Positions 1 through 11,635 of a DNA stretch of 64,000 nt are shown here, one piece after another. The number at the start of each line of letters is the position of its first letter. The stretch's first letter is position 1. The translations under genes were made by a program, and so were the position numbers. Below the pieces are notes generated by a model. It did not search any database. It had not been told where the DNA came from and saw nothing but the letters and a program-made list of their open reading frames with translations. The stretch comes from Gammaproteobacteria bacterium HGW-Gammaproteobacteria-11 (GTDB taxonomy: Bacteria; Pseudomonadota; Gammaproteobacteria; Pseudomonadales; Pseudomonadaceae). The DNA is taken from contig PGZJ01000005.1 of assembly GCA_002840055.1 (NCBI GenBank), forward strand, positions 1 to 64,000, given 5' to 3'.

Positions 1-1644
1 CGCCTGTGCGAAGAGGAAGGTATTCACTACCACTTTGAACACACAACCGATAACCACCTGCTGGTGTTTGGTGATGACCAGACCAGCTTCCCGCGTCTGC
101 CGCGCCCCACCGCCTATACACAGGACAGCGGCCTGGTCGCCGATGAACAGGTGATCAAACGCTTTGCCCTGCGCATGGAGACCCGGCCCAGCCGCGTGAC
201 CCGTCGCGACTACGACTTTGAAAAGCCGCATCTGCTGATGGAGGCCGCCCACCAGGCCGAACAGCCGATTGAAGGGGAAGAGCCACCGCCGCCGCTGCCG
301 GATCTGGAAGACTACGACTACCCCGGCCTCTTTAGCGAACGCGCCCGCGGCAAACACCTGGCCAAGCGCACCCTGGAGCGGCATCGCAGTGACTACCGCC
401 TGGCGGAAGGCAAGAGTGATGTCCCCAGCCTGATCAGCGGTCACTTTCTTACGTTATCCGAGCACCCCAGAGTCGACTGGAACGACCTGTGGCTGATTAC
501 CGGCATCCGCCACGAAGGCAAACAACCCCAAGTACTGGAAGAATCCGTCACCAGTGACGTCAGAGCCGAAGACGGCTTTACCCAGGGCTACCGCAACCAG
601 TTCACCGCCACGCCCTGGGATGTGCCGTTCAGACCACAACTGAATCACCCCAAACCCAAGGTCCTCGGCAGCCAGACCGCCGTGGTCACCGGCCCGGCTG
701 GCGAAGAAATCCACTGCGACCAATACGGCCGCATCAAGGTGCAATTCCATTGGGACCGTGAAGGTCAGGCCGATGAGCAGACCAGTTGCTGGTTGCGTGT
801 CTCATCCAGCTGGGCGGGCAATCAATATGGCGGCATCGCCATCCCGCGCATCGGTATGGAAGTGCTGGTCACCTTCCTCGAAGGCGACCCGGATCAACCG
901 CTGGTCACCGGCTGCCTGTACCACAAGGGCCATCCCACGCCCTACGAGCTACCAGCACACAAGACCCGCAGCGTATTCAAAACCCTGAGCAGCGCCCCCG
1001 GTGGTGGCGGCGGTGGCTACAACGAACTGCGGATTGAAGACAAACAAGGCGAAGAACAGATCTACCTGCACGCCCAGCGCGACTGGGACGAGAACATCGA
1101 GCACGACCAGAAGATTCGCGTCGGCAACGAACGCCATGACCGCGTCGAGGCCAACAGCTACTCGGAATTCATGGCTGAAGAGCACCGCACCACCCACGGT
1201 GAGCGCAAAACCGAGATCAAGGCCAATGATCATCTGACCGTCGGCACCAGTCAGCATATCAAGCTGGGTACCGGCCAATTTATCGAAGCCGGACAGGAAA
1301 TCCACCTCTCCAGCGGCATGAAAATGGTTCTGGACGCCGGCAGCGAGATCACCTTCAAGGTCGGCGGCAGCTTCGTCAAACTCGACCCCAGCGGCATCTC
1401 CCTGGTCGGGCCCAACGTCAAGATCAACTCCGGCGGTAGTCCGGGGTCGGGTAGTGGCGCGGCGCCTGAGCTGCCGGGGGATGTGTTGGCGGCGGATAGT
1501 GATGAGGCGGGTGGGGTGCTCGCCTTCCGCCTTAAAGAAGCACGGCTGGATAGCACACCCTTTGTCGAGCTTTGCCAAAAGCCCAAGGGCGGAACCCCAG
1601 CCCAGTGCCCGCTTGCAGATTGCCCATGCCGTAAGGGAGCTTGA
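1..1644 (+). CDS. vgrG: Type VI secretion VgrG spike protein, 5' end cut by window
   Basis: The reading frame is open from base 1, so the N-terminus lies outside the window; 547 residues are visible. The protein trimerises into the tip of the T6SS puncturing device. Visible parts are the end of the gp27-like domain, a gp5-type OB fold (around residues 235-305, with the DQYGRIKVQFHWD and PRIGMEVLV signatures typical of VgrG), and a glycine-rich repetitive beta-helix needle (about 330-475). A Gly/Ser/Pro linker then leads to a tail of about 65 residues ending in four closely spaced cysteines (QCPLADCPCRKG). The tail goes beyond a minimal VgrG and may dock the adaptor or the effector. The gene is followed 8 bp later by the DUF4123 adaptor. 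Family assignment is secure; the role of the tail is inference. Confidence 0.95.
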   Translation, partial: RLCEEEGIHYHFEHTTDNHLLVFGDDQTSFPRLPRPTAYTQDSGLVADEQVIKRFALRMETRPSRVTRRDYDFEKPHLLMEAAHQAEQPIEGEEPPPPLPDLEDYDYPGLFSERARGKHLAKRTLERHRSDYRLAEGKSDVPSLISGHFLTLSEHPRVDWNDLWLITGIRHEGKQPQVLEESVTSDVRAEDGFTQGYRNQFTATPWDVPFRPQLNHPKPKVLGSQTAVVTGPAGEEIHCDQYGRIKVQFHWDREGQADEQTSCWLRVSSSWAGNQYGGIAIPRIGMEVLVTFLEGDPDQPLVTGCLYHKGHPTPYELPAHKTRSVFKTLSSAPGGGGGGYNELRIEDKQGEEQIYLHAQRDWDENIEHDQKIRVGNERHDRVEANSYSEFMAEEHRTTHGERKTEIKANDHLTVGTSQHIKLGTGQFIEAGQEIHLSSGMKMVLDAGSEITFKVGGSFVKLDPSGISLVGPNVKINSGGSPGSGSGAAPELPGDVLAADSDEAGGVLAFRLKEARLDSTPFVELCQKPKGGTPAQCPLADCPCRKGA

Positions 1645-1652
1645 GTCCAAGT

Positions 1653-2390
1653 ATGAGTTATCAACGTATGGCGCAAATGCCGCTCCTGCAAGGTCACACT
1701 TACTGGCTGGCCGAGCCGCAGAAGGGCTTGTTGGAAAAACTCTATGAGCTGGAGCCAAATCCTGATCCTGTGCAACTATTTGAAGGCACAGCTTTCTCCC
1801 CCCAGGCAAGCCAGTCCCCTTTACTCTTTAGCCTGTCAGCCAGCGGTGGGCTAGCCTCGAGCCTGGCAGACAACCCCAATGCACTCACCGGTCTGCTCAT
1901 AACCACGCAGGCGTCACGCGCCCAGCTATTGCAGCAACTGCGCAGCTTGCTGGAAGCGCGCTTTCTACAGGGGCGTAAAGCCTTATTACGGTACTACGAC
2001 CCCCGGGTTGCCAGCTACCTGTTGCCAACCTGTAGTGAATCTTTGCAACCGCGCTGGCTTGGCCCCATCAACGATATTGCCTGGTACGGCGGCACCTGGG
2101 CTGACGAGTTCGCCGATGGCAAACAGTGGCACCTGCTCCGGCACGTGCAGCAACCCGACGCAAAAATTCCTGCAACCCCGCTCGCTCTGAATGACACTCA
2201 GCTGCAACGCTTGGTGGATCAGGGCTACGAGCATTTTGCCTGGCGCTGGCTGGCAGACAACAAAGGTTATGCAATGGCCCAGACACTCGACTGGATCAAA
2301 ACCGGTATCGCCGCCGGACACACCGAACACAATTCGCTGAACGCCTGGCTGGATAGCCAGACAATGGCGCAAGGAGCGCAGAACGGATGA
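1653..2390 (+). CDS. DUF4123 T6SS effector adaptor/chaperone
   Basis: A 245-residue protein with DUF4123 features: an N-terminal hydrophobic strand pattern, a central LLEARFLQGRKALLRYYDPRV segment (the 'RFYDPRV' hallmark), and LLPTCSES followed by a GPI..IAWY stretch. DUF4123 proteins (also called Tap or Tec) are cytoplasmic adaptors that load a cognate effector on its VgrG and are not themselves secreted. The ATG at 1653 is preferred over the TTG at 1641. It overlaps the effector gene by 4 bp (ATGA), and its position between vgrG and a large toxin is the canonical order. No enzymatic residues are expected. The effector specificity is inferred from position only. Confidence 0.85.
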   Translation: MSYQRMAQMPLLQGHTYWLAEPQKGLLEKLYELEPNPDPVQLFEGTAFSPQASQSPLLFSLSASGGLASSLADNPNALTGLLITTQASRAQLLQQLRSLLEARFLQGRKALLRYYDPRVASYLLPTCSESLQPRWLGPINDIAWYGGTWADEFADGKQWHLLRHVQQPDAKIPATPLALNDTQLQRLVDQGYEHFAWRWLADNKGYAMAQTLDWIKTGIAAGHTEHNSLNAWLDSQTMAQGAQNG

Positions 2391-5300
2391 GTAGCAATGT
2401 CTGTATTCTCGACAAAGGACCGGCCTGTGAGCCAGATAAGCTGATCGTTGAAATCATCGGCAAACAACACCCAGATACCCAGCGACTGTTAATCTGCGAC
2501 GCCGAAGGGCAGCCCCTTGATACCGTTACTTCAGCCGCTAAAGAGGAAGAGATCTCCAGCGAAGGCGTCTCCAGTTTGCTGAAAGTGTGGGATTGGGAAG
2601 AGCAACCAGGCGAAACGTTGTATCTGGAAATTGCCAGCGATTCTGGGAGCCCCATCCGCCTGCCGCTGCTGCCCGATCTCAGAGCCACCCCTCGTCAAGA
2701 GCAAGCTCAACTCAACCAGATTGTGCCTGTGGTTCCCTGCACTGCACTGTCAGGTACCCGCCAGGCGGATGACCTGGGTGTTCCCGTGCTGGTGCGCAGT
2801 GGCTATATCTATGTGTTTGTTTCGGGCAAGCTCTGGCGAGAACTCGAGGTCCGCTTTACCGAGCAAGGCACACGTTACTTTGATGTCAACGTCGCGCAAT
2901 ATCGTAACGAACATGGCTTTGCCAATGTCAAACGAAGAGCGACAGGTGTAGCGCTGGAAGATATATGGCTACCATCCCAGTGGAACGGAAGCTGGCCTGG
3001 CGCCGTTGAATTGATGTTTTCCGAGGTTCAGCTGAGCGCATCCCGCCTCAAGCATTATGAGCGGCATGAAAACTTTCTTTCTCCGCGCGTGCGCAACCCC
3101 CGTTTGCTGGTGACCGAATCTCTTTGGCAGCGGCTATGGGCAAACGCTCCGGACGGCCTTGCCATGCTTGAGGCGCAGCGTGCTGCAGCAGTCAACCAGA
3201 GTATCGTTCCATCCGTATCACGCCTCAGAATGGAATCCAGTGCTTTTCCAGTAGCGCTCTGCGCACCTCAACGTCAGCGCCAGCCAGGCCATGAGTGGCT
3301 ACTGGACCAGCCAGCCAGCATGCTTTGTGATCTGACCGGAAGCTATCCAGAAAAGGCCTTGAACTGCACCCGAGAAGCAACCCAGACCTGGCGTACTGGC
3401 GTAGCAACTGATCCACCTGCTGACTTTGAATCAGAGGCCTGGCGCAGTTGCTATAACGGCTGCGATCCACAAACTGCTGCCGTCTGGCAGGCTCAGGATG
3501 CTCAATCCGACGCGCTTCAGGCGGTACGTGACCGGAAGCTTTACGCAGTTCTTTTGCCCGACCCCATGAACCGAATGCGCCACTTGCATGCACGTATCGA
3601 TAGCCTGCAGGAGCTGCTGAAATACTGCACCCAGCTCGCTATGGAGCACCCGCACCACGCCAGCGCAATAGTGCTGCATAACATGGCCGTACCACGCCAT
3701 GTTGGCGGTAGCTTGAACCCCCTGAACCAACACTTTCAAGACAGGTTGGAGGAACAAGGAAAGCGCGAGATCAACATTGCCACCGCCGCCGTTGAGCGGG
3801 CTAATATCTGGAAACTACTGGATAGCGCTCAACTGGGACTCAGTAAAGTCTTGAGCTTGAGCCAGTTCCAACAGTGCCTGGGCGACCATTTAAGCCTGGA
3901 CCACTTAGAGTATCCAGCAGCCATGTTCTTTGCGGTCCGGGTAATGGCTTGTCTCGCCGCTACTCCGGCACAACTTGACCCCCTCGCACTGAAAGGCGAT
4001 ATCCATGATGCAGTGACCGGGGTCCGCCTGCATAGCCCGGGACGCAATGATGGCCAGCAGTTTCTGGTCGATATGACCAATCGGATCACCCATCCCCTCC
4101 ATGGAATGCTGCTACCGGAGATCAGGGTCAACGCGCTATTTGATCAATACCGCAAGCCAGCCGAGCAGGAACCCAACAATGGCGATGGCCGTTTTCGCGC
4201 AACGGCATTGGCCAGCCTGGAAGACATGGATGCACCGGATGAAGAAAGCGAAACCCTTGACGGCATGACCTTGGCCGCCTTGATGGCTAGCGGCACACTA
4301 CAGGACAGCTTTACCGCCCATAGCAGTTTCAAGGCTGGCATGGCTGTACTTAGCAAAATCCATGAGATTCTGAGCAGTGCAATCACAGCTGCAGAAAATC
4401 ACATGTCTGATGCAGCCAATCAGCTCGATAACCGCAACCAAAGGGTCGCTGCAAGTCGGGCCGACCTGGATCAGGCTCGTCAAGATCAGAGCCGCCACCG
4501 CGTCGAACTGGGCGAACAGGCCCTATTGGCAAAAATCAGATTGCACGGCTTGGCTGCAGAGCATTTGCGCCAAACCATGCCTAATGCTTTCGAAGGGGCA
4601 AAATTTGTCAGATCAGGCCAGTTCAAGGGTAGCGAATACTACCTGTTCGGCCTGGAAGACTTACCCGAAGCCGATCCGAATAGGGCGTCGGAAAAGCTGT
4701 TTGGCCAGTATCTGGATGGCGCAGGAAATCGACTGGCAACTACCGATGCTCGCGCGGCAAGGGGTTCGGGCATGCCGATTACCCCTGAAACGGGAACCTA
4801 CTTCGCCATACCGCGCAGCAATCCAACAAGGGAAATTCTGAGCAAGCTCAATCAGGCCACGCTGCGCGAAACCTTGGCTGACTCCGACTTGCTTGCCGCA
4901 CGCGCCTTTGAGGAACAGGCCGGTATGGCCTTGCAGCGTGCTGTCGAGAAATTGAGGCGTCATCGGGAGGGGGGATTAAATAGGGCGCTTAACAGCAGAC
5001 CCTTTTCCGCTGCAGTGTTGGGGCTTGAGATATGGAATGTTCAGGTTGCGTCTGAAGAGTATGGAAGAAGTATTGCTGAAGGACGAGGTATTAGAGCATT
5101 CGCAGGGATGGCGGGCGCAAACCTTGATCTACTCATAGCTTTTGAAGCCTTGGTAAGTAAGGTTGCAGGCAACCAAACGATTCTTAGCGTGACGGCAAAC
5201 AAGACAGTTTTTACTATTTCAGACGAATTGGCGACAAAGTTTCTGGGGCCGCGATTAGCCAAAAGTATTATCTCTGTTGTAAGCGTTAGGATCCTAGGGC

Positions 5301-6235
5301 AGGTTGCTGCGGGCTTAGTTTTTTCAGGCTTGAGCCTGTCCGATGCACTTCATTCCGCCCTATGGGCTGATAAAGCAATATGGGGCCATTATATGATGGC
5401 GGCTGGCGGCCTGATGGGAGCTGCAGGTGTCATGCTCGGAGGCTCAACCCTGTTTGGGCCAGTGGGCATTATTGCAGTGCTTTTGATTATTGGCGGTGCC
5501 GCTGTGGTAGCACTTTTCAGCAATACGGACTTTGAGGACTGGTTGTCTGGTAGCATTTTCAGTGTGGAAGGCGGATTCAGCAAGGCAATACGAGCAGGCA
5601 TGGATATGCTCCCCTATCTAAGCGCCAGCCCACGTCATTTGGAAGATCCCGATGAAGCCCTGTACCGACTGGTTGGCTTGCTGGCCGGCATCAGCATCCA
5701 GATTGAAAACAATCCCGACTATGATCCAAATGCTTTCAATAACGGTTCAAAATCAATCGAGTCATTGAAAAAACGGGCCAACACGCGCATCACTGTGCGC
5801 TCCAATGTAAGTGGTATAGCCGGGCAATTGAGCGTTGCCAGCACTTCTGTTCACTGCCTGCTGGTCCGCAAGGAAATAAGAATTATAAGTACAGGTTTTA
5901 GCCCCGGCCGCAGCGAGACACGCCATGATTTACCTGAACGAAGTACCCCCGTTTTGCTGCATGACCACGCTGACACTAGGATAGTGTATGTCAATACGCC
6001 TGAATTCAGGCCGCAAAGCCACTATTATCAGGAGGCTGACTTATATCACTGGGAAGTAAGAGCGCAATACCGTTTTATTGATAGCCGCAACGGCAAAAAA
6101 TGGATATTCCCTGCACTCAGCCCCAAATTGGCGCCAATTGATCCATCAAAAGAAACAGCTCCCGATCTTCGTAAAACCAATCAGCCACTGTGGGCCGATC
6201 AAAAAACCCATGCCGCTACAGGAGTCGCCAGCTGA
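2387..6235 (+). CDS. VasX-like T6SS effector, probable membrane-disrupting toxin
   Basis: A 1282-residue protein translated from an ATGA overlap with its DUF4123 adaptor. The N-terminal part (about residues 100-420) resembles the VasX/BTH_I2691 family: a VPVVPCTAL start, a VRSGYIYVFV segment ('single strand of a carbohydrate-binding-like module' in relatives), and a YAVLLPDPMNRM stretch equivalent to the 'ALPDP' hallmark. A long heptad-rich segment (about 665-725) is probably coiled coil. The C-terminal third holds hydrophobic segments near 905-930, 960-985 and 1003-1045, the last one Gly/Ala-rich, as in colicin-like pore formers. No catalytic motif was seen. Base composition turns AT-richer from about position 4970, consistent with an exchanged toxin domain. 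Pore formation is inferred from the family. Confidence 0.65.
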   Translation: MSSNVCILDKGPACEPDKLIVEIIGKQHPDTQRLLICDAEGQPLDTVTSAAKEEEISSEGVSSLLKVWDWEEQPGETLYLEIASDSGSPIRLPLLPDLRATPRQEQAQLNQIVPVVPCTALSGTRQADDLGVPVLVRSGYIYVFVSGKLWRELEVRFTEQGTRYFDVNVAQYRNEHGFANVKRRATGVALEDIWLPSQWNGSWPGAVELMFSEVQLSASRLKHYERHENFLSPRVRNPRLLVTESLWQRLWANAPDGLAMLEAQRAAAVNQSIVPSVSRLRMESSAFPVALCAPQRQRQPGHEWLLDQPASMLCDLTGSYPEKALNCTREATQTWRTGVATDPPADFESEAWRSCYNGCDPQTAAVWQAQDAQSDALQAVRDRKLYAVLLPDPMNRMRHLHARIDSLQELLKYCTQLAMEHPHHASAIVLHNMAVPRHVGGSLNPLNQHFQDRLEEQGKREINIATAAVERANIWKLLDSAQLGLSKVLSLSQFQQCLGDHLSLDHLEYPAAMFFAVRVMACLAATPAQLDPLALKGDIHDAVTGVRLHSPGRNDGQQFLVDMTNRITHPLHGMLLPEIRVNALFDQYRKPAEQEPNNGDGRFRATALASLEDMDAPDEESETLDGMTLAALMASGTLQDSFTAHSSFKAGMAVLSKIHEILSSAITAAENHMSDAANQLDNRNQRVAASRADLDQARQDQSRHRVELGEQALLAKIRLHGLAAEHLRQTMPNAFEGAKFVRSGQFKGSEYYLFGLEDLPEADPNRASEKLFGQYLDGAGNRLATTDARAARGSGMPITPETGTYFAIPRSNPTREILSKLNQATLRETLADSDLLAARAFEEQAGMALQRAVEKLRRHREGGLNRALNSRPFSAAVLGLEIWNVQVASEEYGRSIAEGRGIRAFAGMAGANLDLLIAFEALVSKVAGNQTILSVTANKTVFTISDELATKFLGPRLAKSIISVVSVRILGQVAAGLVFSGLSLSDALHSALWADKAIWGHYMMAAGGLMGAAGVMLGGSTLFGPVGIIAVLLIIGGAAVVALFSNTDFEDWLSGSIFSVEGGFSKAIRAGMDMLPYLSASPRHLEDPDEALYRLVGLLAGISIQIENNPDYDPNAFNNGSKSIESLKKRANTRITVRSNVSGIAGQLSVASTSVHCLLVRKEIRIISTGFSPGRSETRHDLPERSTPVLLHDHADTRIVYVNTPEFRPQSHYYQEADLYHWEVRAQYRFIDSRNGKKWIFPALSPKLAPIDPSKETAPDLRKTNQPLWADQKTHAATGVAS

Positions 6236-7269
6236 TGAGCGTGAACAACTATGCATCAACTGCCTATTCCCCAGACAAGCTGCAAGAACAGAAATCAGCC
6301 AAGGCACGCTCAGGCCTTAAACGTCTGGCCGGAAGACGGTTGCCCTGGGGCAATACCCAAGCAGTGGTGCCGGAAACCTTTATGTCTCCAGGACCTGCCA
6401 GCTTAAGGTTGCTAGAAAGTAAGCGGATAAAACGAGACAAAGAAATAGCTCTGGGCACGTATAAGCCCGCACCTTTGGAGCATATAGACTTCCATGACCG
6501 TTGTGACCATGAGCATTATCGTCACGCCCCTTGGTCGGCCAGGACACATTTCTGGATTTATTTGGCCACTTTTGGGAAAGGTGGTTTCTTTATTTTTCTT
6601 TTCGTGGGGACTTTAACTTCTCTTCAAGTTGGTTACATATCACAGAGTGGTTTCATTACAGGTTTATGGGACTCATTTCAAACCTTGATGCTAGTGTTTC
6701 TACTTCCGTGCCTAACCCTCTGGGGACTTGCCTCCCTAGTGATCCACCAATTCCCACGCCTCTGGGCCAAACCCGGCAAAGGTCCCAAATGGGAGCTTAA
6801 TCGCCGCAACGGTATGATTACCGTGTTTGAGTATCGACGCAGTGAAGTCATCGAAAAGCGCGCGCCTTTCCATGAATTCGATGCCTATATCAACACCACC
6901 CCGGACCGCCAAGGCTTGCCGATGAACGTACTGAGCCTGGAGCACCGCTACTCGGATATCAGTATCCACTTCGGTGATCTTCAGCCACCGGATCGCAACA
7001 CCCAGCAACCCTGCGCGCTATGGGACTTTATTCAGAACTATATGGATATCAGCCATCCGCTGCCGGATGCACCGCTGTTTGAAGAACATCGCCACAACGA
7101 CCCGACCACGCTAGAACACGACAAGGCAACCAAGCGCCACAAACGCTTCTGGATCGATATGACCGATGAGGCCTTCAAGCAGGAGCAACAACGTATGCGC
7201 ATCAAGGTTGATGCCATCAACACTTTTAGCCGGCCAAACCTGATGGCGCAGTATGTAAGTTATGTGTGA
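6235..7269 (+). CDS. Membrane protein, candidate immunity or accessory factor of the VasX-like effector
   Basis: 344 residues starting in a TGATG overlap with the effector stop codon, so translationally coupled to the toxin. A basic, soluble N-terminal segment is followed by two transmembrane helices (around residues 105-130 and 145-175), then a soluble C-terminal beta-rich domain beginning WELNRRNGMITVFEYR and a charged helical tail. This arrangement (two helices, then a domain reading out a strand-rich 'RRNG..TVFEYRR' unit) parallels the DUF6708-like paralogs downstream, although sequence identity looks low. For pore-forming T6SS toxins such as VasX the cognate immunity protein is an inner-membrane protein, which fits. 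The function is inferred from coupling and topology; it could instead be an effector-maturation factor. Confidence 0.5.
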   Translation: MSVNNYASTAYSPDKLQEQKSAKARSGLKRLAGRRLPWGNTQAVVPETFMSPGPASLRLLESKRIKRDKEIALGTYKPAPLEHIDFHDRCDHEHYRHAPWSARTHFWIYLATFGKGGFFIFLFVGTLTSLQVGYISQSGFITGLWDSFQTLMLVFLLPCLTLWGLASLVIHQFPRLWAKPGKGPKWELNRRNGMITVFEYRRSEVIEKRAPFHEFDAYINTTPDRQGLPMNVLSLEHRYSDISIHFGDLQPPDRNTQQPCALWDFIQNYMDISHPLPDAPLFEEHRHNDPTTLEHDKATKRHKRFWIDMTDEAFKQEQQRMRIKVDAINTFSRPNLMAQYVSYV

Positions 7270-7293
7270 TGGGGTTTTATTGGCCTGATGCCA

Positions 7294-7324
7294 ACCCCTT
7301 CGCGGTCAAGCCCGCTCCTACAAT
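7294..7324 (+). repeat. REP-like element, left copy
   Basis: Contains the Pseudomonas REP signature TTCGCGGTCAAGCCCGC followed by TCCTACA, with an imperfect self-complementary core (GCGG / CCGC around TCAAGC). A second copy in the same orientation sits at 11604-11635, at the other end of the immunity-gene block. REPs of this kind are intergenic palindromes spread by RAYT transposases and often act as transcript-end stabilisers. Confidence 0.75.
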
Positions 7325-7454
7325 TTGCATCAAAGGACGCTGCAACTCGGACTTTGAGGTCAGTAGCAAACTGAGAGCTGACCATGTGTAAGGATTTGCT
7401 GAGCTATTAAAAAGGACGCTCTATAGGATAACAATTAATGTCATGGAGGACGAT

Positions 7455-7889
7455 ATGACGACAAAAAACGAAACTGAGAGATATGGCTTTGCCGAGTTCA
7501 CATGCACACATTGCAAGCACCATGACAAACTGGATATCGCCCTTATCCGGGACTTGATCGCCCCCAAACCGATCAAATGTTCCGCATGTTGCACACAGGT
7601 ACAACTTGGAACAGCCGATCACAAAGCCCTAGAAGCGCATTTCAATAAGGGTGAGCGGCTTGGCAAGATGGCGTTCATGATTGCCTTGCCCTTTTTTGCG
7701 GTAACCCTGGTTTTGTCGCTCATGTACGGAGCGATTGCCACCATCCCGTGCGTTATAACCGGATTATTGCTTGGCGCCATGTTGAAGGGAGAATTCAGCT
7801 CCCTAGGAGTTGTGTCACTGCCGCTTGAGCCTGTACCAATAATCAAGAATTTCTCAGATCTTGAAGCGCAGGCTTTCACGCTCTATTGA
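7455..7889 (+). CDS. Zinc-ribbon membrane protein of unknown function
   Basis: 144 residues from the ATG at 7455, preceded by a strong GGAGGA ribosome-binding site (7444-7449). An in-frame ATG at 7443 lies upstream of that site and is less likely. The N-terminal soluble part carries two CxxC pairs (CTHC near residue 15 and CSAC near 44), a probable zinc ribbon. Two transmembrane helices follow (about 74-95 and 98-115), then a short tail. It lies between the VasX-like effector operon and the DUF6708-like array, so an auxiliary role in immunity or effector handling is possible. I do not recognise a named family. Confidence 0.6.
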   Translation: MTTKNETERYGFAEFTCTHCKHHDKLDIALIRDLIAPKPIKCSACCTQVQLGTADHKALEAHFNKGERLGKMAFMIALPFFAVTLVLSLMYGAIATIPCVITGLLLGAMLKGEFSSLGVVSLPLEPVPIIKNFSDLEAQAFTLY

Positions 7890-7953
7890 TGCGATCAGAG
7901 ACGGCTCGAACAAAGGCTGGACTTTGGCGATGAGAAAATACTGGGGGAAAACT

Positions 7954-8030
7954 GGGGTCAGGTCTTGCCTTTTGCGTGCTCCCTTTTTGCCAACACCCCT
8001 CCAGCAGAGAGGCAAAAGACAAGACCTTAC
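7954..8030. repeat. Imperfect inverted repeat with GGGGTCAGGTCTTGC motif (RAYT/REP-associated type)
   Basis: Left arm 7960-7975 (AGGTCTTGCCTTTTGC) and right arm 8012-8027 match as reverse complements except at one base, separated by about 36 bp. The flanking GGGGTCAGGTCTTG is a motif commonly found around REP-associated tyrosine transposase loci. The element overlaps the apparent start of the next reading frame and may have truncated that gene or supplied its start. Confidence 0.6.
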
Positions 8031-8414
8031 CTCGTGTTCCCTTGTATTAAAATCATCATTGTCCAGCCAAGGAACGCAGTCAGCGATATAACCCAGGAAT
8101 GGCTGGCCTCAATACAAAGCGAATGGCTACCGATCGAGGAAGGCATGGGCTTACGACTAATAGGACCCGTTCGTCATATAGAGAGCAATCAGCATCTTGA
8201 AGTGCAGGTTCGCTATCACAGCCCCATCGCAATGTTGACTGGTACCCTTGATGAGGCACAACCCGTTATTGGTGGGCAGATGGGGATGCGTTATATCGTA
8301 AAAGGGGGAGACGTTACCGAACACAATAGCGACGAAGGCCCGTTGGCAAGCGATTGCCAGCCCATGAGAATTGTATTGAGTTACGATGCGTTACAACCCA
8401 GGAGTACGCCATGA
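7965..8414 (+). CDS. Hypothetical protein, start uncertain, possibly 5'-truncated
   Basis: The frame is open from a TTG inside an inverted repeat (7954-8030). The first 25 or so residues are therefore encoded by repeat DNA and are unlikely to be original. The plausible gene body starts near VSDITQEWLASIQ (about 8075) and runs to 8414, a soluble acidic protein of about 110 residues with alternating strand pattern and no recognisable motif. Its stop overlaps the start of the first DUF6708-like gene by ATGA, so the two are coupled and the frame is likely real. Either the repeat inserted in the 5' end of an older gene or a start further inside is used (ATG 8147). Function unknown. Confidence 0.45.
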   Translation: MPFACSLFANTPPAERQKTRPYLVFPCIKIIIVQPRNAVSDITQEWLASIQSEWLPIEEGMGLRLIGPVRHIESNQHLEVQVRYHSPIAMLTGTLDEAQPVIGGQMGMRYIVKGGDVTEHNSDEGPLASDCQPMRIVLSYDALQPRSTP

Positions 8415-9373
8415 CACCCCCTGCCGGCAAGATGGAAAAAGGCTTACTATGGAAACAGGAATACCTTTCCCCTTTGCCCATTCCTACCGGCCAACCTGCG
8501 TCCGATATCTTGAGTCTGATATGGCGTAAAAATGATACGTACCTAGATGTTGGCAGCCTGTCTCTTTTTGGAGCGTGGGCGACAAATCACTCGATTACTT
8601 TGCTTTTTCTTTTTCTAATAATTGTTCCACTGATACACGGAGTATATGTGCTGGCCGCCTTGATGTTCATAGCTGGGCTGCTGCTAATGGGGTTTGGCTG
8701 GAGCCTGTTTATTAGCCTCTATCGTCGCCCGCTCCCCCCACCCTTACGCTTTCACCGCCAGCGCCGAGAAGTGCGTATTACTACGCCTGATGGTGAGGAG
8801 TGGACTGTCCCTTGGGAGCGAGTGCACGCCCTAGCCCCCAGCGCGACCATGATTGGCCAGTTCGGGGCCGCGCAAATGGGCGGTTTGATTCTGTGGTTTC
8901 CCTACGCCCATGAGATCGATCAGCCCTACCATAAGAACAAGGAAGGCTGGGTGATGATGGTCAGCCCCGGTCCAGGTATTGCGGCCATGCGTCAGTGGGA
9001 GTGCATTCGCAGCTTTATGGAAATCGGGCCAGAAGCCGTTCCTGAGCCTCTCAAGGAGCTTCATGAGAAAACCGGGAGGGGCGTTTTTAATGAAACATTT
9101 AAAAAAGCTCGGGAAAAGCATGGGTTGCTATTTGCGCTGCTTTGGGAGGGTTTCGCAGCCTGCATCCTGTTCAACATGCTGACCTATGAATGGCTGCACA
9201 GAAAAAAGTTTGCCGTGATACCTGACCTGGAAAGCCCGGAGGGCATCGCCTGGTCGCAGCCATTGCCACCAGATCAGTGGGCCAAACGGTCGCCTGAGCT
9301 GGAAGCGGCCATAGCTGAAAGGGAACAGGATCTGGCCGCACTGAATGCCAAGCAAACGTCGCATACAGCCTAG
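8411..9373 (+). CDS. DUF6708-like membrane protein, copy 1 of tandem array (candidate T6SS immunity)
   Basis: 320 residues from ATG 8411 (GGAG about 8 bp upstream; 4-bp overlap with the preceding frame). Domain order: a soluble N-terminal segment (KQEYLSPLPIPTGQPASDIL), two transmembrane helices (about residues 55-80 and 83-105), a conserved strand-rich domain (PLRFHRQRREVRITTPDGEE to RSFMEIGPEAVPEP), a third hydrophobic helix (about 240-260), and a conserved cytosolic-looking tail (AVIPDLESPEGIAWSQPLPP). Copies 2 and 3 share the soluble parts almost exactly but differ in the membrane segments and in residues around 215-260. DUF6708 proteins recur next to T6SS effector loci. The immunity role is inference from position and family context. 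Confidence 0.7.
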   Translation: MTPPAGKMEKGLLWKQEYLSPLPIPTGQPASDILSLIWRKNDTYLDVGSLSLFGAWATNHSITLLFLFLIIVPLIHGVYVLAALMFIAGLLLMGFGWSLFISLYRRPLPPPLRFHRQRREVRITTPDGEEWTVPWERVHALAPSATMIGQFGAAQMGGLILWFPYAHEIDQPYHKNKEGWVMMVSPGPGIAAMRQWECIRSFMEIGPEAVPEPLKELHEKTGRGVFNETFKKAREKHGLLFALLWEGFAACILFNMLTYEWLHRKKFAVIPDLESPEGIAWSQPLPPDQWAKRSPELEAAIAEREQDLAALNAKQTSHTA

Positions 9374-9480
9374 CTTTTGATGTGTGACTTAGCGCGCTTA
9401 GCTGGTTAAGCGAACCGGCAAGACAGCTTGGCTACTACGTTGCCACAAGGAACTGTGCAGATGAGGAAGGGATACCTTTG
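9371..9480 (+). repeat. Intergenic direct repeat, copy A (second at 10447-10556)
   Basis: About 107 bp between paralogs 1 and 2, beginning TAGCTTTTGATG and ending GGGATACCTTTG, nearly identical to the spacer between paralogs 2 and 3 (only a few substitutions, mostly around 9398-9410). The repeat period of the array is 1076 bp. Each copy includes a six-codon open frame (ATG 9461, peptide MRKGYL) whose stop overlaps the TTG start of the following gene. Confidence 0.85.
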
Positions 9481-10449
9481 AATAACAATTCGCCGCCTGC
9501 CGGCAAGGTGGAAAAGGGCTTTCTATGGAAGCAGGAATACCTCTCCCCATTGCCCATTCCTACCGGCCAACCCGCATCCGATATTTTGAGTCTGATATGG
9601 CGCAAGAATGACAGTTACCTGGATATTGGCAGTCTTTCTTTGGCAGGATCATGGGCAATAGCCCATGTCTGTACAGTAATTTTTCTTTCCTCTACAGTTT
9701 TTTCGTTGCTGCATGGGCAATATTGGTTCGCCTTTTTGATGTTCATGGGGGGGGCATTGTTAATGGGCTTTTGCTGGAGCCTATTTATTGGCCTTTATCG
9801 TCGCCCACTGGCACCCCCGTTACGCTTTCACCGCCAGCGCCGAGAAGTGCGAATTACAACGCCTGATGGCGAGGAATGGACAGTACCCTGGGAGCGGGTG
9901 CATGCCCTAGCCCCCAGCGCGACCATGATTGGCCAGTTCGGGGCAGCGCAAATGGGCGGCCTGATTCTGTGGTTCCCCTACGCCCATGAGATTGATCAGC
10001 CCTACCATAAGAAAAAGGAAGGCTGGGTCATGATGGTCAGCCCCGGTCCAGGCATTGCGGCCATGCGCCAGTGGGAATGTATTCGCAGCTTTATGGAAGT
10101 CGGGCCGGAGGCCGTTCCTGAGCCACTGCAGAATCTGCGCGGCAAAAATCTGAAAGAACTCTTTCTTGAAGAGTTTCATAAAACACGAGAAAAACATGGC
10201 CTGTTTTTAGCTTTATTACGGGATATAGGGGTGGGCTGTTTGCTGCTGAACCTGATGACCTACCTCTGGCTGCATAGAAGAAAATTTGCCGTGATACCTG
10301 ACCTGGAAAGCCCGGAGGGCATCGCCTGGTCGCAGCCCTTGCCACCCGAGCAGTGGGCCAAACGGTCGCCTGAGCTGGAAACGGCCATAGCTGAAAGGGA
10401 ACAGGATCTGACCACATTGAATGCTAAGCAAACGTCGCATACAGCCTAG
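9478..10449 (+). CDS. DUF6708-like membrane protein, copy 2 of tandem array
   Basis: 323 residues. The start is a TTG at 9478; no ATG exists upstream in frame within the repeat, and the peptide aligns from NNNSPPAGKVEKG with copy 1. A purine-rich GAGGAAGGG lies 7-15 bp upstream and is inside a six-codon leader frame that ends on the TTG (TTGA overlap). The soluble domains match copies 1 and 3, whereas the helices (IAHVCTVIFLSSTVFSLL... and the ALLRDIGVGCLLLNLMTY region) are distinct. Likely inner-membrane protein. The gene belongs to a 1076-bp tandem duplication. Candidate immunity protein against a variant of the VasX-like toxin; not demonstrated. Confidence 0.7.
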   Translation: MNNNSPPAGKVEKGFLWKQEYLSPLPIPTGQPASDILSLIWRKNDSYLDIGSLSLAGSWAIAHVCTVIFLSSTVFSLLHGQYWFAFLMFMGGALLMGFCWSLFIGLYRRPLAPPLRFHRQRREVRITTPDGEEWTVPWERVHALAPSATMIGQFGAAQMGGLILWFPYAHEIDQPYHKKKEGWVMMVSPGPGIAAMRQWECIRSFMEVGPEAVPEPLQNLRGKNLKELFLEEFHKTREKHGLFLALLRDIGVGCLLLNLMTYLWLHRRKFAVIPDLESPEGIAWSQPLPPEQWAKRSPELETAIAEREQDLTTLNAKQTSHTA

Positions 10450-10556
10450 CTTTTGATGTATGACTTAGCGCTCCTGGCTGGTTAAGCGAACCGGCAAGAC
10501 AGCTTGGCTACTACGTTGCCACAAGGAACTGTGCAGATGAGGAAGGGATACCTTTG
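10447..10556 (+). repeat. Intergenic direct repeat, copy B
   Basis: Second copy of the spacer described at 9371-9480. The leader frame is again ATG (10537), MRKGYL, with its stop overlapping the TTG start at 10554. Preservation of this arrangement in both copies could reflect recent duplication alone or retained function. Confidence 0.85.
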
Positions 10557-11525
10557 AATAGCAATTCACACCCTGCCGGCAAGGTGGAAAAGGGCTTTCT
10601 ATGGAAGCAGGAATACCTCTCCCCCTTACCTATCCCTACGGGCCAACCCGCATCCGATATCTTGAGTCTGATATGGCGCAAGAATGACACCTATCTGGAT
10701 ATTGGCAGCCTCTCTTTGGCCGCTTCATGGGCGATGAATCATGTGCTTTCAATAATTTTTCTGTGCTCCACAATTTATGCATTGCTGTTGGGCTCGTATA
10801 TTCTTGCTGCTGGGGTTTTCTTGTTGGGGCTAGTGCTAACCGGTTTTGGCTGGAGCCTGTTTGTTGGGCTCTATAGTCGCCCCCTAGCCCCCCCGTTACG
10901 CTTTCACCGCCAGCGCCGAGAAGTGCGTATTACTACGCCTGATGGCGAGGAATGGACAGTCCCTTGGGAGCGAGTGCACGCCCTAGCCCCCAGCGCAACC
11001 ATGATTGGCCAGTTCGGGGCCGCGCAAATGGGGGGCCTGATTCTGTGGTTCCCCTACGCCCATGAGATTGATCACCCCTACCATAAGAAAAAGGAGGGCT
11101 GGGTCATGATGGCCAGCCCCGGCCCAGGCATTGCGGCCATGCGTCAGTGGGAGTGTATTCGCAGCTTTATGGAAGTCGGACCGGAGGCCGTTCCTGAGCC
11201 TATGCAGGATTTTCGCGACAAAAGTTTGAAGGACATATTTCTTGATGGCTTTAACGAGGCCCGTGAAAAGCACGGCTTTGTTGTAGCCGTATTATGGGAT
11301 ATCGGCGTGTGGTGCGTGCTGTTTAACATTATGACTTACCACTGGCTGCACAGAAGAAAATTTGCCGTGATACCTGACCTGGAAAGCCCGGAGGGCATCG
11401 CCTGGTCGCAGCCCTTGCCACCCGAGCAGTGGGCCAAACAGTCGCCTGAGCTGGAAGCGGCCATAGCTGAAAGGGAACAGGATCTGGCCGCACTGAATGC
11501 TGAGTCACCGTCGCAGGCCGCCTAG
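10554..11525 (+). CDS. DUF6708-like membrane protein, copy 3 of tandem array
   Basis: 323 residues from a TTG start at 10554, with the same leader arrangement as copy 2. Conserved blocks are identical or nearly so to copy 2 (RREVRITTPDGEEWTVPWER, IGQFGAAQMGGLILWFPYAH), again interrupted by divergent helices ([40 protein letters not shown]-like segment). The C-terminal tail diverges slightly in the last residues (NAESPSQAA). It ends the array; a REP copy follows about 80 bp later. The pattern of fixed soluble parts and exchanged membrane helices suggests that the helices carry target specificity. Function inferred. Confidence 0.7.
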   Translation: MNSNSHPAGKVEKGFLWKQEYLSPLPIPTGQPASDILSLIWRKNDTYLDIGSLSLAASWAMNHVLSIIFLCSTIYALLLGSYILAAGVFLLGLVLTGFGWSLFVGLYSRPLAPPLRFHRQRREVRITTPDGEEWTVPWERVHALAPSATMIGQFGAAQMGGLILWFPYAHEIDHPYHKKKEGWVMMASPGPGIAAMRQWECIRSFMEVGPEAVPEPMQDFRDKSLKDIFLDGFNEAREKHGFVVAVLWDIGVWCVLFNIMTYHWLHRRKFAVIPDLESPEGIAWSQPLPPEQWAKQSPELEAAIAEREQDLAALNAESPSQAA

Positions 11526-11603
11526 CTTTAAACATGGCTGGTGGCTGCTTGCTTATTAGATTAGTGGTCTGAGCTCTTACCCGAGGATCAATGGGCCAAG
11601 CCA

Positions 11604-11635
11604 GCCTCTTCGCGGTCAAGCCCGCGCCTACAGGC
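11604..11635 (+). repeat. REP-like element, right copy
   Basis: GCCTCTTCGCGGTCAAGCCCGCGCCTACAGG, the same REP family and orientation as 7294-7324. The two copies bracket the block of the zinc-ribbon gene and the three DUF6708-like genes. Confidence 0.8.

Follow-up and report, generated by a model that had tools for sequence, protein, structure and literature searches.

How do membrane-bound immunity proteins tell closely related pore-forming toxins apart? To our knowledge, this is still a largely open question. The immunity proteins of pore-forming colicins recognise a hydrophobic hairpin of the toxin through their membrane helices, and we know of no arrays of helix-shuffled copies among them. 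Here we analyse three tandem genes, A, B and C, which encode predicted membrane proteins with near-constant soluble parts and differing helices, in a stretch of 64,000 nucleotides (contig PGZJ01000005.1, positions 1 to 64,000, of Gammaproteobacteria bacterium HGW-Gammaproteobacteria-11) that we call the window. From comparison with related loci, it is likely that A, B and C are retained orphan immunity genes against variants of a displaced effector, with specificity residing in two exchangeable helix modules.

Excerpts of four published reports describe the closest known systems. In Vibrio cholerae, orphan immunity genes of the type VI secretion system (T6SS) form arrays that are explained by a model of sequential displacement (Kirchberger et al. 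2017, PMC5361080). In Stenotrophomonas rhizophila, the genes vgrG3-tap3-tse3, the last encoding a pore-forming effector of the BTH_I2691 family, are followed by the DUF6708 immunity gene tsi3a and 12 homologous genes (PMC13340143). The alpha-helical region of Tke5, also of the BTH_I2691 family, is toxic and is neutralised by Tki5 (PMC12909789). Among the ionophore toxins of contact-dependent inhibition (CDI), the residues that vary in one helix of the toxin are predicted interaction partners of polymorphic, membrane-localised CdiI proteins, each of which protects against its own toxin only (PMC11630599).

Constant and exchanged blocks in A, B and C and their relatives

The three genes at 8411-11525 have near-constant soluble parts, as the earlier note had described. 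For each pair of copies, amino-acid differences number 3-6 of 52-55 in the N-terminal block, 2-5 of 105 in the middle soluble block and 4-9 of 55 in the C-terminal tail, and they rise to 24-27 of 56 codons in the block of the first two transmembrane helices (TM1-TM2) and 22-30 of 52 in the linker and third helix (linker + TM3). Jukes-Cantor synonymous divergence (dS) is likewise unequal among blocks: 0.38-0.76 in the N-terminal block, 0.76-1.18 in TM1-TM2, 0.26-0.47 in the middle, 1.06-1.78 in linker + TM3 and 0.05-0.14 in the tail. Because synonymous divergence tracks the same blocks as amino-acid divergence, the blocks have separate histories. The two helix blocks have ratios of nonsynonymous to synonymous divergence (dN/dS) of 0.21-0.48, and the middle block has ratios of 0.03-0.06; purifying selection acts on the constant block in all three copies. 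The only ratio above 1 belongs to the tail of the B-C pair (1.59, from 2 synonymous and 10 nonsynonymous differences). An assembly artefact was considered and dropped, since the copies are too divergent. All three proteins score below the Pfam gathering cut-off of 27 bits for DUF6708 (PF20455; A 11.8, B 14.5 and C 14.1 bits), and 29 of the 33 rows of an alignment match this family at E <=0.1, the best at 1.3e-9.

Does the pattern recur in relatives? We compared A-like genes (type 1) with those of a sister subfamily (type 2), whose rows are 17-21% identical to copy B. An identity dip with raised synonymous divergence in TM1-TM2 was found in 8 of 8 gene sets, from seven loci and both subfamilies with the window included, and the TM1-TM2 blocks of these sets keep their hydrophobicity. 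For TM3, the window, G016, L062 and the type-1 genes of L035 show a strong dip, and the other four sets a milder one (for example, identity there is 77-93% in L039 and 83-84% in L067). Further counts come from loci fetched around chosen hits in a collection of one genome per species, so that those over all 107 loci describe a non-random sample. Duplicates were left out (L039, L054, L040, L041 and L058, equal to L133, L140, L141, L187 and L189), as was L181 from the module-shuffling analysis on; near-duplicates (L135/L136 and L153/L212) and pairs of loci from one genome (L146/L147, L148/L149 and L199/L200) were retained.

Are the constant blocks, here called the chassis, and the helix modules V1 (TM1-TM2) and V2 (linker + TM3) inherited together? 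We used the proportions of synonymous (pS) and nonsynonymous (pN) sites that differ; for the module combinations given further below, 126 type-1 and 51 type-2 copies of 285-400 aa with scores >240 were kept. Mean within-array pS was lower than pS to any other locus in 28 of 37 type-1 arrays for the middle block and 28/37 for the tail, compared with 11/37 for V1 and 16/37 for V2; with the same block limits, tail pS in the window is 0.00-0.09 between copies vs 0.43 to the copy in L034. The nearest copy lay in the same locus for the chassis in 29 of 44 type-1 cases (V1 14, V2 18) and in 16 of 24 type-2 cases (V1 9, V2 12). Chassis blocks thus tend to evolve in concert within an array; many modules are closer to other loci than to their own array, which is untrue of most chassis.

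Modules clustered at 0.75 identity by single linkage form 48 V1 x V2 combinations among the type-1 copies, with 83 four-gamete sets; the arrays of L215 (six copies) and L192 (eight copies) are examples. Alike modules recur in differing combinations, both within arrays and across species, and only 2 of 129 within-array pairs have the same two modules. Within-array pairs alike in V1 only (n=16) have a pS of 0.14 in V1 and 0.72 in V2, pairs alike in V2 only (n=31) have 0.62 in V1 and 0.14 in V2, and the middle block stands at 0.20 in both groups. Because synonymous sites agree with module likeness, the bulk of module sharing reflects recombination rather than convergence. In the five-copy type-2 array L067, the pairs L067.1/L067.5 and L067.3/L067.4 likewise share V2, and not V1, at synonymous sites. 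Helix swapping, which the earlier note had offered beside diversifying selection, is borne out by these sets and the synonymous sites.

Long arrays occur more than once in this collection: L192, L205 and L215 hold 8, 7 and 6 tandem immunity genes per single effector, each array with its own mix of helix modules. At L035:4575-10969, in Halopseudomonas pertucinogena, a class-2 effector precedes six immunity genes of alternating type (2, 1, 2, 1, 2, 1), which looks like the repetition of a two-gene unit.

Diversifying selection in the sense of helix dN/dS >1 did not hold up and was dropped. Pooled pN/pS in type 1 is 0.44 in V1 and 0.14 in V2 (related modules) against 0.09 in the middle block, and positive selection by point mutation is thus not demonstrated. 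A classical arms race, in which point mutation under diversifying selection acts alone and recombination is incidental, would fit the higher ratio in V1 than in the middle block, as well as the position of two effector segments described below, a and b, among the most variable effector stretches. We nevertheless regard it as unlikely: among pairs of related type-1 modules, pN is the larger value in about 2 of 36 for V1 and in 0 of 55 for V2, and the four-gamete sets require either recombination or repeated convergence, the latter being contradicted by synonymous sites.

Partner effectors and the matching of their segments to adjacent helix modules

Which effectors accompany these genes? Relatives share the locus order VgrG, DUF4123 adaptor, effector and 1-8 immunity copies, although an unlabelled gene takes the place of DUF4123 in many class-2 loci. 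An intact class-1 or class-2 effector lies close upstream in 86 of the 107 loci, and 47 of these 86 carry 2-8 immunity copies. Six others (window included) have an effector of the VasXw class, named after the intact VasX-like effector at 2387-6235 of the window, together with a gene like I342, which follows that effector; 8 loci are cut by contig edges and 7 have no effector by our rule. Among these seven, L195 has a split effector, L037, L145 and L160 have fragments, and L066 and L186 have an effector-like open reading frame (ORF) further upstream. The commonest overlaps between effector and first immunity gene are 4 bp (43/86) and 10 bp (22/86). Type-1 genes directly follow class-1 effectors, and type-2 genes follow class-2 effectors (about 890-1220 aa); the two classes agree in 85 of 86 loci, including all 56 in which the effector is of class 1. 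The recurrence of this order argues for an array of immunity proteins, as the earlier note had proposed, and A, B, C and their relatives are probably such proteins.

Effectors of all these classes score below the NF041559 cut-off of 150 bits: four class-1 effectors reach 65-90, one class-2 effector 110, the L059 effector 19 and the window effector 29. The class-1 profile matches Ptx2 (PDB 9qpv), a BTH_I2691-family member, at E 1.4e-14, mainly over the N-terminal region of Ptx2, and by analogy class-1 partner effectors may form inner-membrane pores like Ptx2 and Tke5. No such match to 9qpv was found for the window's own effector.

The earlier note had taken the upstream VasX-like effector as the partner of the array, and on this point the locus reads differently. 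That effector is followed by I342, and A directly follows U149, a remnant that matches residues 959-1078 of the class-1 effector of L036 (E 5.7e-32) and is the sole match to that effector in the genome assembly (~76% complete). U149 overlaps A by 4 bp, the overlap commonest in intact loci, and the part of the effector that it matches falls in a beta-rich region of a weak structure model. Effector C-terminal pieces stand directly before an immunity gene at 18 places. Twelve of these, including U149, are clear internal remnants; in L037, L063 and L147 the effector is broken, and L071, L223 and one of two pieces in L161 lie at contig edges. Such remnant ends fit the sequential-displacement model, as given in the excerpted account (PMC5361080).

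I342 appears to be a distant relative of the A/B/C family, judging from a profile-profile match over 95 columns (probability 92, E 5.2e-7), and is likely the immunity gene of the intact effector. Six VgrG loci (L059, L065, L152, L163, L168 and L178) carry effectors weakly like VasXw (26-43 bits) and then an I342-like gene, and retain type-1 or type-2 immunities further downstream, an arrangement also seen in the window; they suggest repeated replacement of one effector class by another.

Could A, B and C simply be extra immunities to the intact effector, raising dosage or redundancy without separate specificities? They lie downstream of it in the same direction, and I342 is distantly related to them. 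Yet similar effectors are followed by an I342-like gene in the six loci just named, at all 56 loci with a class-1 effector a class-1 immunity comes next, A stands behind a class-1 remnant with a 4-bp overlap, and same-module pairs are as rare within arrays as reported above. We consider this explanation very unlikely and, on the class agreement and the position of A, dropped the idea that the three genes are spare immunities to the upstream effector.

Which parts of an effector vary with the immunity modules? In 12 close locus pairs (six per type, L165 occurring in three), the adjacent immunity protein's mean identity falls in type 1 to 46-62% in V1 windows and 26-35% in V2 windows against 82-96% elsewhere, and in type 2 to 40-44% in V1 only against 82-98% elsewhere. 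Effector identity in these pairs is lowest in window 726-750 for type 1 (73%) and in window 676-700 for type 2 (67%). We then scanned 20-residue effector windows, controlling for overall effector divergence. In the first scan, the top 2 of 108 windows for type-1 V2 were 741 and 731, the top 2 of 96 for type-2 V1 were 671 and 681, and V2 in type 2 pointed elsewhere. The type-1 V2 and type-2 V1 windows were noted before further genomes were added; all matching type-2 genomes (17 of 56 in the genus) were already in the first set. Among 22 new type-1 loci, windows 731 and 741 came first and second of 108 for V2, in line with the prediction made beforehand. For V1, windows 761 and 751 ranked 1 and 2 of 108; this match to segment b was not noted beforehand and came first in both the old (23 loci) and the new sets.

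We defined segment a as residues 731-757 and segment b as 758-782 and compared 214 pairs among 45 loci, each with a class-1 effector >1000 aa (score >400) and an immunity gene within 400 bp. At array position 1, V1 is the same in 20 of 31 pairs with the same segment b and in 4 of 183 with a different one, and V2 is the same in 15 of 20 pairs with the same segment a and in 22 of 194 with a different one (odds ratios 81 and 24). Both matches vanish at position 2 (V1 by segment b, 2/22 vs 5/131; V2 by segment a, 0/10 vs 30/143), and the effector segments therefore track the adjacent immunity rather than the second gene. The two matches also dissociate. Where a differs and b is the same (n=25), V1 is the same in 15 pairs and V2 in 3; where a is the same and b differs (n=14), V2 is the same in 12 and V1 in 1. 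When immunities were permuted within effector clades, the matched counts (V1 with b, V2 with a) were reached in 0 of 5000 permutations at two clade cuts; for V2 with segment b, 187 and 3367 of 5000 permutations attained the observed count.

Single columns narrow the segments further. Column scans used loci with effectors >=60% identical to a reference (18 of 45 for type 1 and 14 of 29 for type 2). Over 695 type-1 columns, residues 741-750 take the top 10 places for V2, and 770, 771, 767, 774 and 766 the top 5 for V1. The reverse scan, of 187 columns, ties segment a clearly to residues 201-260 of the immunity protein; for segment b the link is weaker and leads to residues 61-100. The V1 result recurs in type 2, where the 10 best of 573 columns fall within 638-659. 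A natural swap experiment is provided by L146, L199 and L200, the last two from one genome, whose effectors are 92-95% identical and differ in one short segment or the other together with the helix module of the adjacent immunity. L146 and L199 have 96% identity in segment a and a fully shared V2 (100%), with 68% in segment b and 49% in V1; L146 and L200 have 100% identity in segment b and in V1, with 63% in segment a and 21% in V2. This two-way matching supports the earlier note's view of the helices as the discriminating part. A relaxed constraint, under which helices need only hydrophobicity and drift while purifying selection holds the chassis, with no specificity encoded, would fit helix pN/pS ratios that are below 1 yet above that of the middle block and V1 blocks that remain hydrophobic, but it is scarcely credible when synonymous sites are uneven as well, alike modules recur in differing combinations and helix identity is tied to two short effector segments in the adjacent copy.

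Layout of the window

The features are collected in Table 1. Start codons of A, B and C are mechanical ORF starts, the A-B-C repeat spacing is 1076 bp, twice, and searches with I342 used a query from 6241. The 33-bp repeat at 7290..7322 is of a kind that we take to be REP (repetitive extragenic palindromic). The source assembly comprises 82 contigs and is about 76% complete; the T6SS core gene PF05936 is present elsewhere in it.

Table 1. Positions of genes, modules and repeats in the window
Feature	Position	Strand	Details
VgrG spike protein	64..1644	+	TIGR03361, E 4.2e-139; 547 aa, open-ended; frame open at window start, true start possibly further left
DUF4123 adaptor	1641..2390	+	PF13503, E 8.9e-20
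VasXw, intact VasX-like/BTH_I2691-like effector of another class	2387..6235	+	VasX_N E 0.001 and NF041559 E 3e-7, both below cut-off
I342, presumed immunity gene of the intact effector	6235..7269	+	start ATG (6235) overlaps the effector stop by 1 nt
REP-like 33-bp repeat, left copy	7290..7322	+	two copies in genome assembly, <=2 mismatches
Small gene	7443..7889	+	best Pfam E 0.035, below cut-off
Imperfect inverted repeat, just 5' of the effector remnant	7945..8041	no strand	DNA folding z -3.9
U149, C-terminal-domain remnant of displaced class-1 effector	ORF 7965..8414, homology 8049..8414	+	
Putative immunity copy A	8411..9373	+	320 aa, ATG start
A, V1 module (TM1-TM2)	8579..8719	+	limits carried over from B
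A, V2 module (linker + TM3)	9032..9217	+	limits carried over from B
Putative immunity copy B	9478..10449	+	323 aa, TTG start
B, V1 module (TM1-TM2)	9655..9795	+	residues 60-106
B, V2 module (linker + TM3)	10108..10293	+	residues 211-272
Putative immunity copy C	10554..11525	+	323 aa, TTG start
C, V1 module	10731..10871	+	limits carried over from B
C, V2 module	11184..11369	+	limits carried over from B
Feature	11600..11632	+	

The inverted repeat at 7945-8041 is strong, with arms around GGTCTTGCCTTTTGC, and adjoins the start of homology to the displaced effector. No second copy of its left arm was found in the assembly, at its ~76% completeness. It is perhaps a mobile-element relic at the truncation point.

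Proposed mechanism and comparison with known systems

How might such an array work? A, B and C would protect against variants of a membrane-inserting, Ptx2/Tke5-like T6SS effector. The effector gene that belonged to the array would have been displaced, with only its C-terminal domain (U149) left before A. Each copy would be an inner-membrane protein made of a constant soluble chassis, the TM1-TM2 hairpin V1, and V2. The AlphaFold2 model of copy B (mean predicted local distance difference test 87.4, predicted template-modelling score 0.82) has a helical hairpin at 56-108, a strand-rich soluble part and further helices at 225-269. In type-1 loci of relatives with an intact effector, V2 pairs with some 10 effector residues (741-750, L146 numbering) and V1 with some 9 (766-774), stretches that flank a hydrophobic core, 752-765, which is almost invariant and reads PALTLFGGVIGALS in L146. 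Recombination exchanges the modules, and the chassis is homogenised within most arrays. The matching may reflect direct pore-blocking contact in the membrane: within the inner membrane, the immunity helices would bind the inserting effector hairpin, with V2 close to the turn and V1 alongside the helix after it, and would thereby block pore assembly. The toxicity of the Tke5 alpha-helical region and its neutralisation by Tki5, as excerpted, fit such helix binding (PMC12909789). We hold, with moderate confidence, that this is a two-slot combinatorial code in the membrane, in which two core-flanking effector stretches are read separately by two exchangeable helix modules and orphan arrays form a stored repertoire for recombining new matches and combinations, the chassis being kept alike for module exchange. 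A, B and C may still protect against neighbours that carry the lost effector type.

Several observations weigh against retained immunities with a helix-borne code, for which all evidence is comparative. Individual pairs deviate from it: L139 and L140 share segment a with V2 20% alike, V1 of L173 and L179 is 15% alike despite a type-2 hot spot 96% alike, and L146.2/L146.3, one of the 16 pairs alike in V1 only, have a V1 pS of 0.72. Of six pairs alike in both segments, 3 differ in V2. There are few types of V2, and 19 of the 169 pairs in which neither segment is alike still have V2 in common. V1 with segment a beats the coarse permutation (1/5000) and not the finer one (554/5000). Control segments give odds ratios of 0.7-5.4 at position 1, two reach 9 and 11 at position 2 (three pairs each), and position 3 offers 29 pairs, too few to tell. 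Segment limits were set after the scans, so that only the V2 ranks in new loci count as a prior prediction; these loci come from the same large genus as many old ones and are new data rather than an independent clade, and locus pairs are non-independent. The segment-b window (761) was third, not first, for type-1 V1 in the first scan, and the reverse scan of segment b is noisy, with a tail column second and stray columns outside 61-100. Type 2 gave no focal V2 signal in window and column scans and no four-gamete set among its 51 copies. As for the window itself, the specificity segments are absent from U149, and none of the modules of A, B and C reaches 75% likeness to that of any other copy among the 126 of type 1. 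Of 57 later copies in arrays, just 6 agree in both modules with a first-position copy from elsewhere.

If the proposed contact is real, two helix modules and some 20 effector residues would be enough to read specificity, one could predict which strains are cross-immune, and arrays like A-B-C would record the effector variants met by a lineage; toxin-antidote matching might then be readable from sequence. Searches of an open-access library, with subscription papers and preprints outside their reach, listed no account of two helix modules shuffled on a fixed chassis and matched by a two-segment code in the effector.

How does the locus compare with those described? By sequence, class-1 effectors match Ptx2 (9qpv), which likens them to Ptx2 and to Tke5/Tki5; unlike here, the excerpted Tke5/Tki5 account holds no mapping of immunity specificity to helix segments (PMC12909789). 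The CDI ionophore toxins and CdiI proteins resemble our loci in that a variable toxin stretch is predicted to be met by a polymorphic membrane immunity, but they belong to other protein families and, in the excerpted text, have no fixed chassis, tandem array or two-slot module exchange (PMC11630599). The S. rhizophila Tse3/Tsi3 cluster is alike in its array of immunity homologues behind a BTH_I2691 effector, so that the array is not, as such, the new arrangement that the earlier note had supposed; the available part of that account describes the array and mentions neither a helix pattern nor module exchange nor a specificity code (PMC13340143). With the V. cholerae arrays, as excerpted, our loci share one active effector, several immunity genes, shifted-back 3' ends of displaced effectors and the keeping of old immunities (PMC5361080). 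V. cholerae, however, exchanges whole immunity genes, with same-genome copies not clustering, whereas here the chassis is homogenised and two helix modules are exchanged separately (PMC5361080); if our reading is correct, immunity arrays would diversify also by module exchange inside genes, beside whole-gene displacement.

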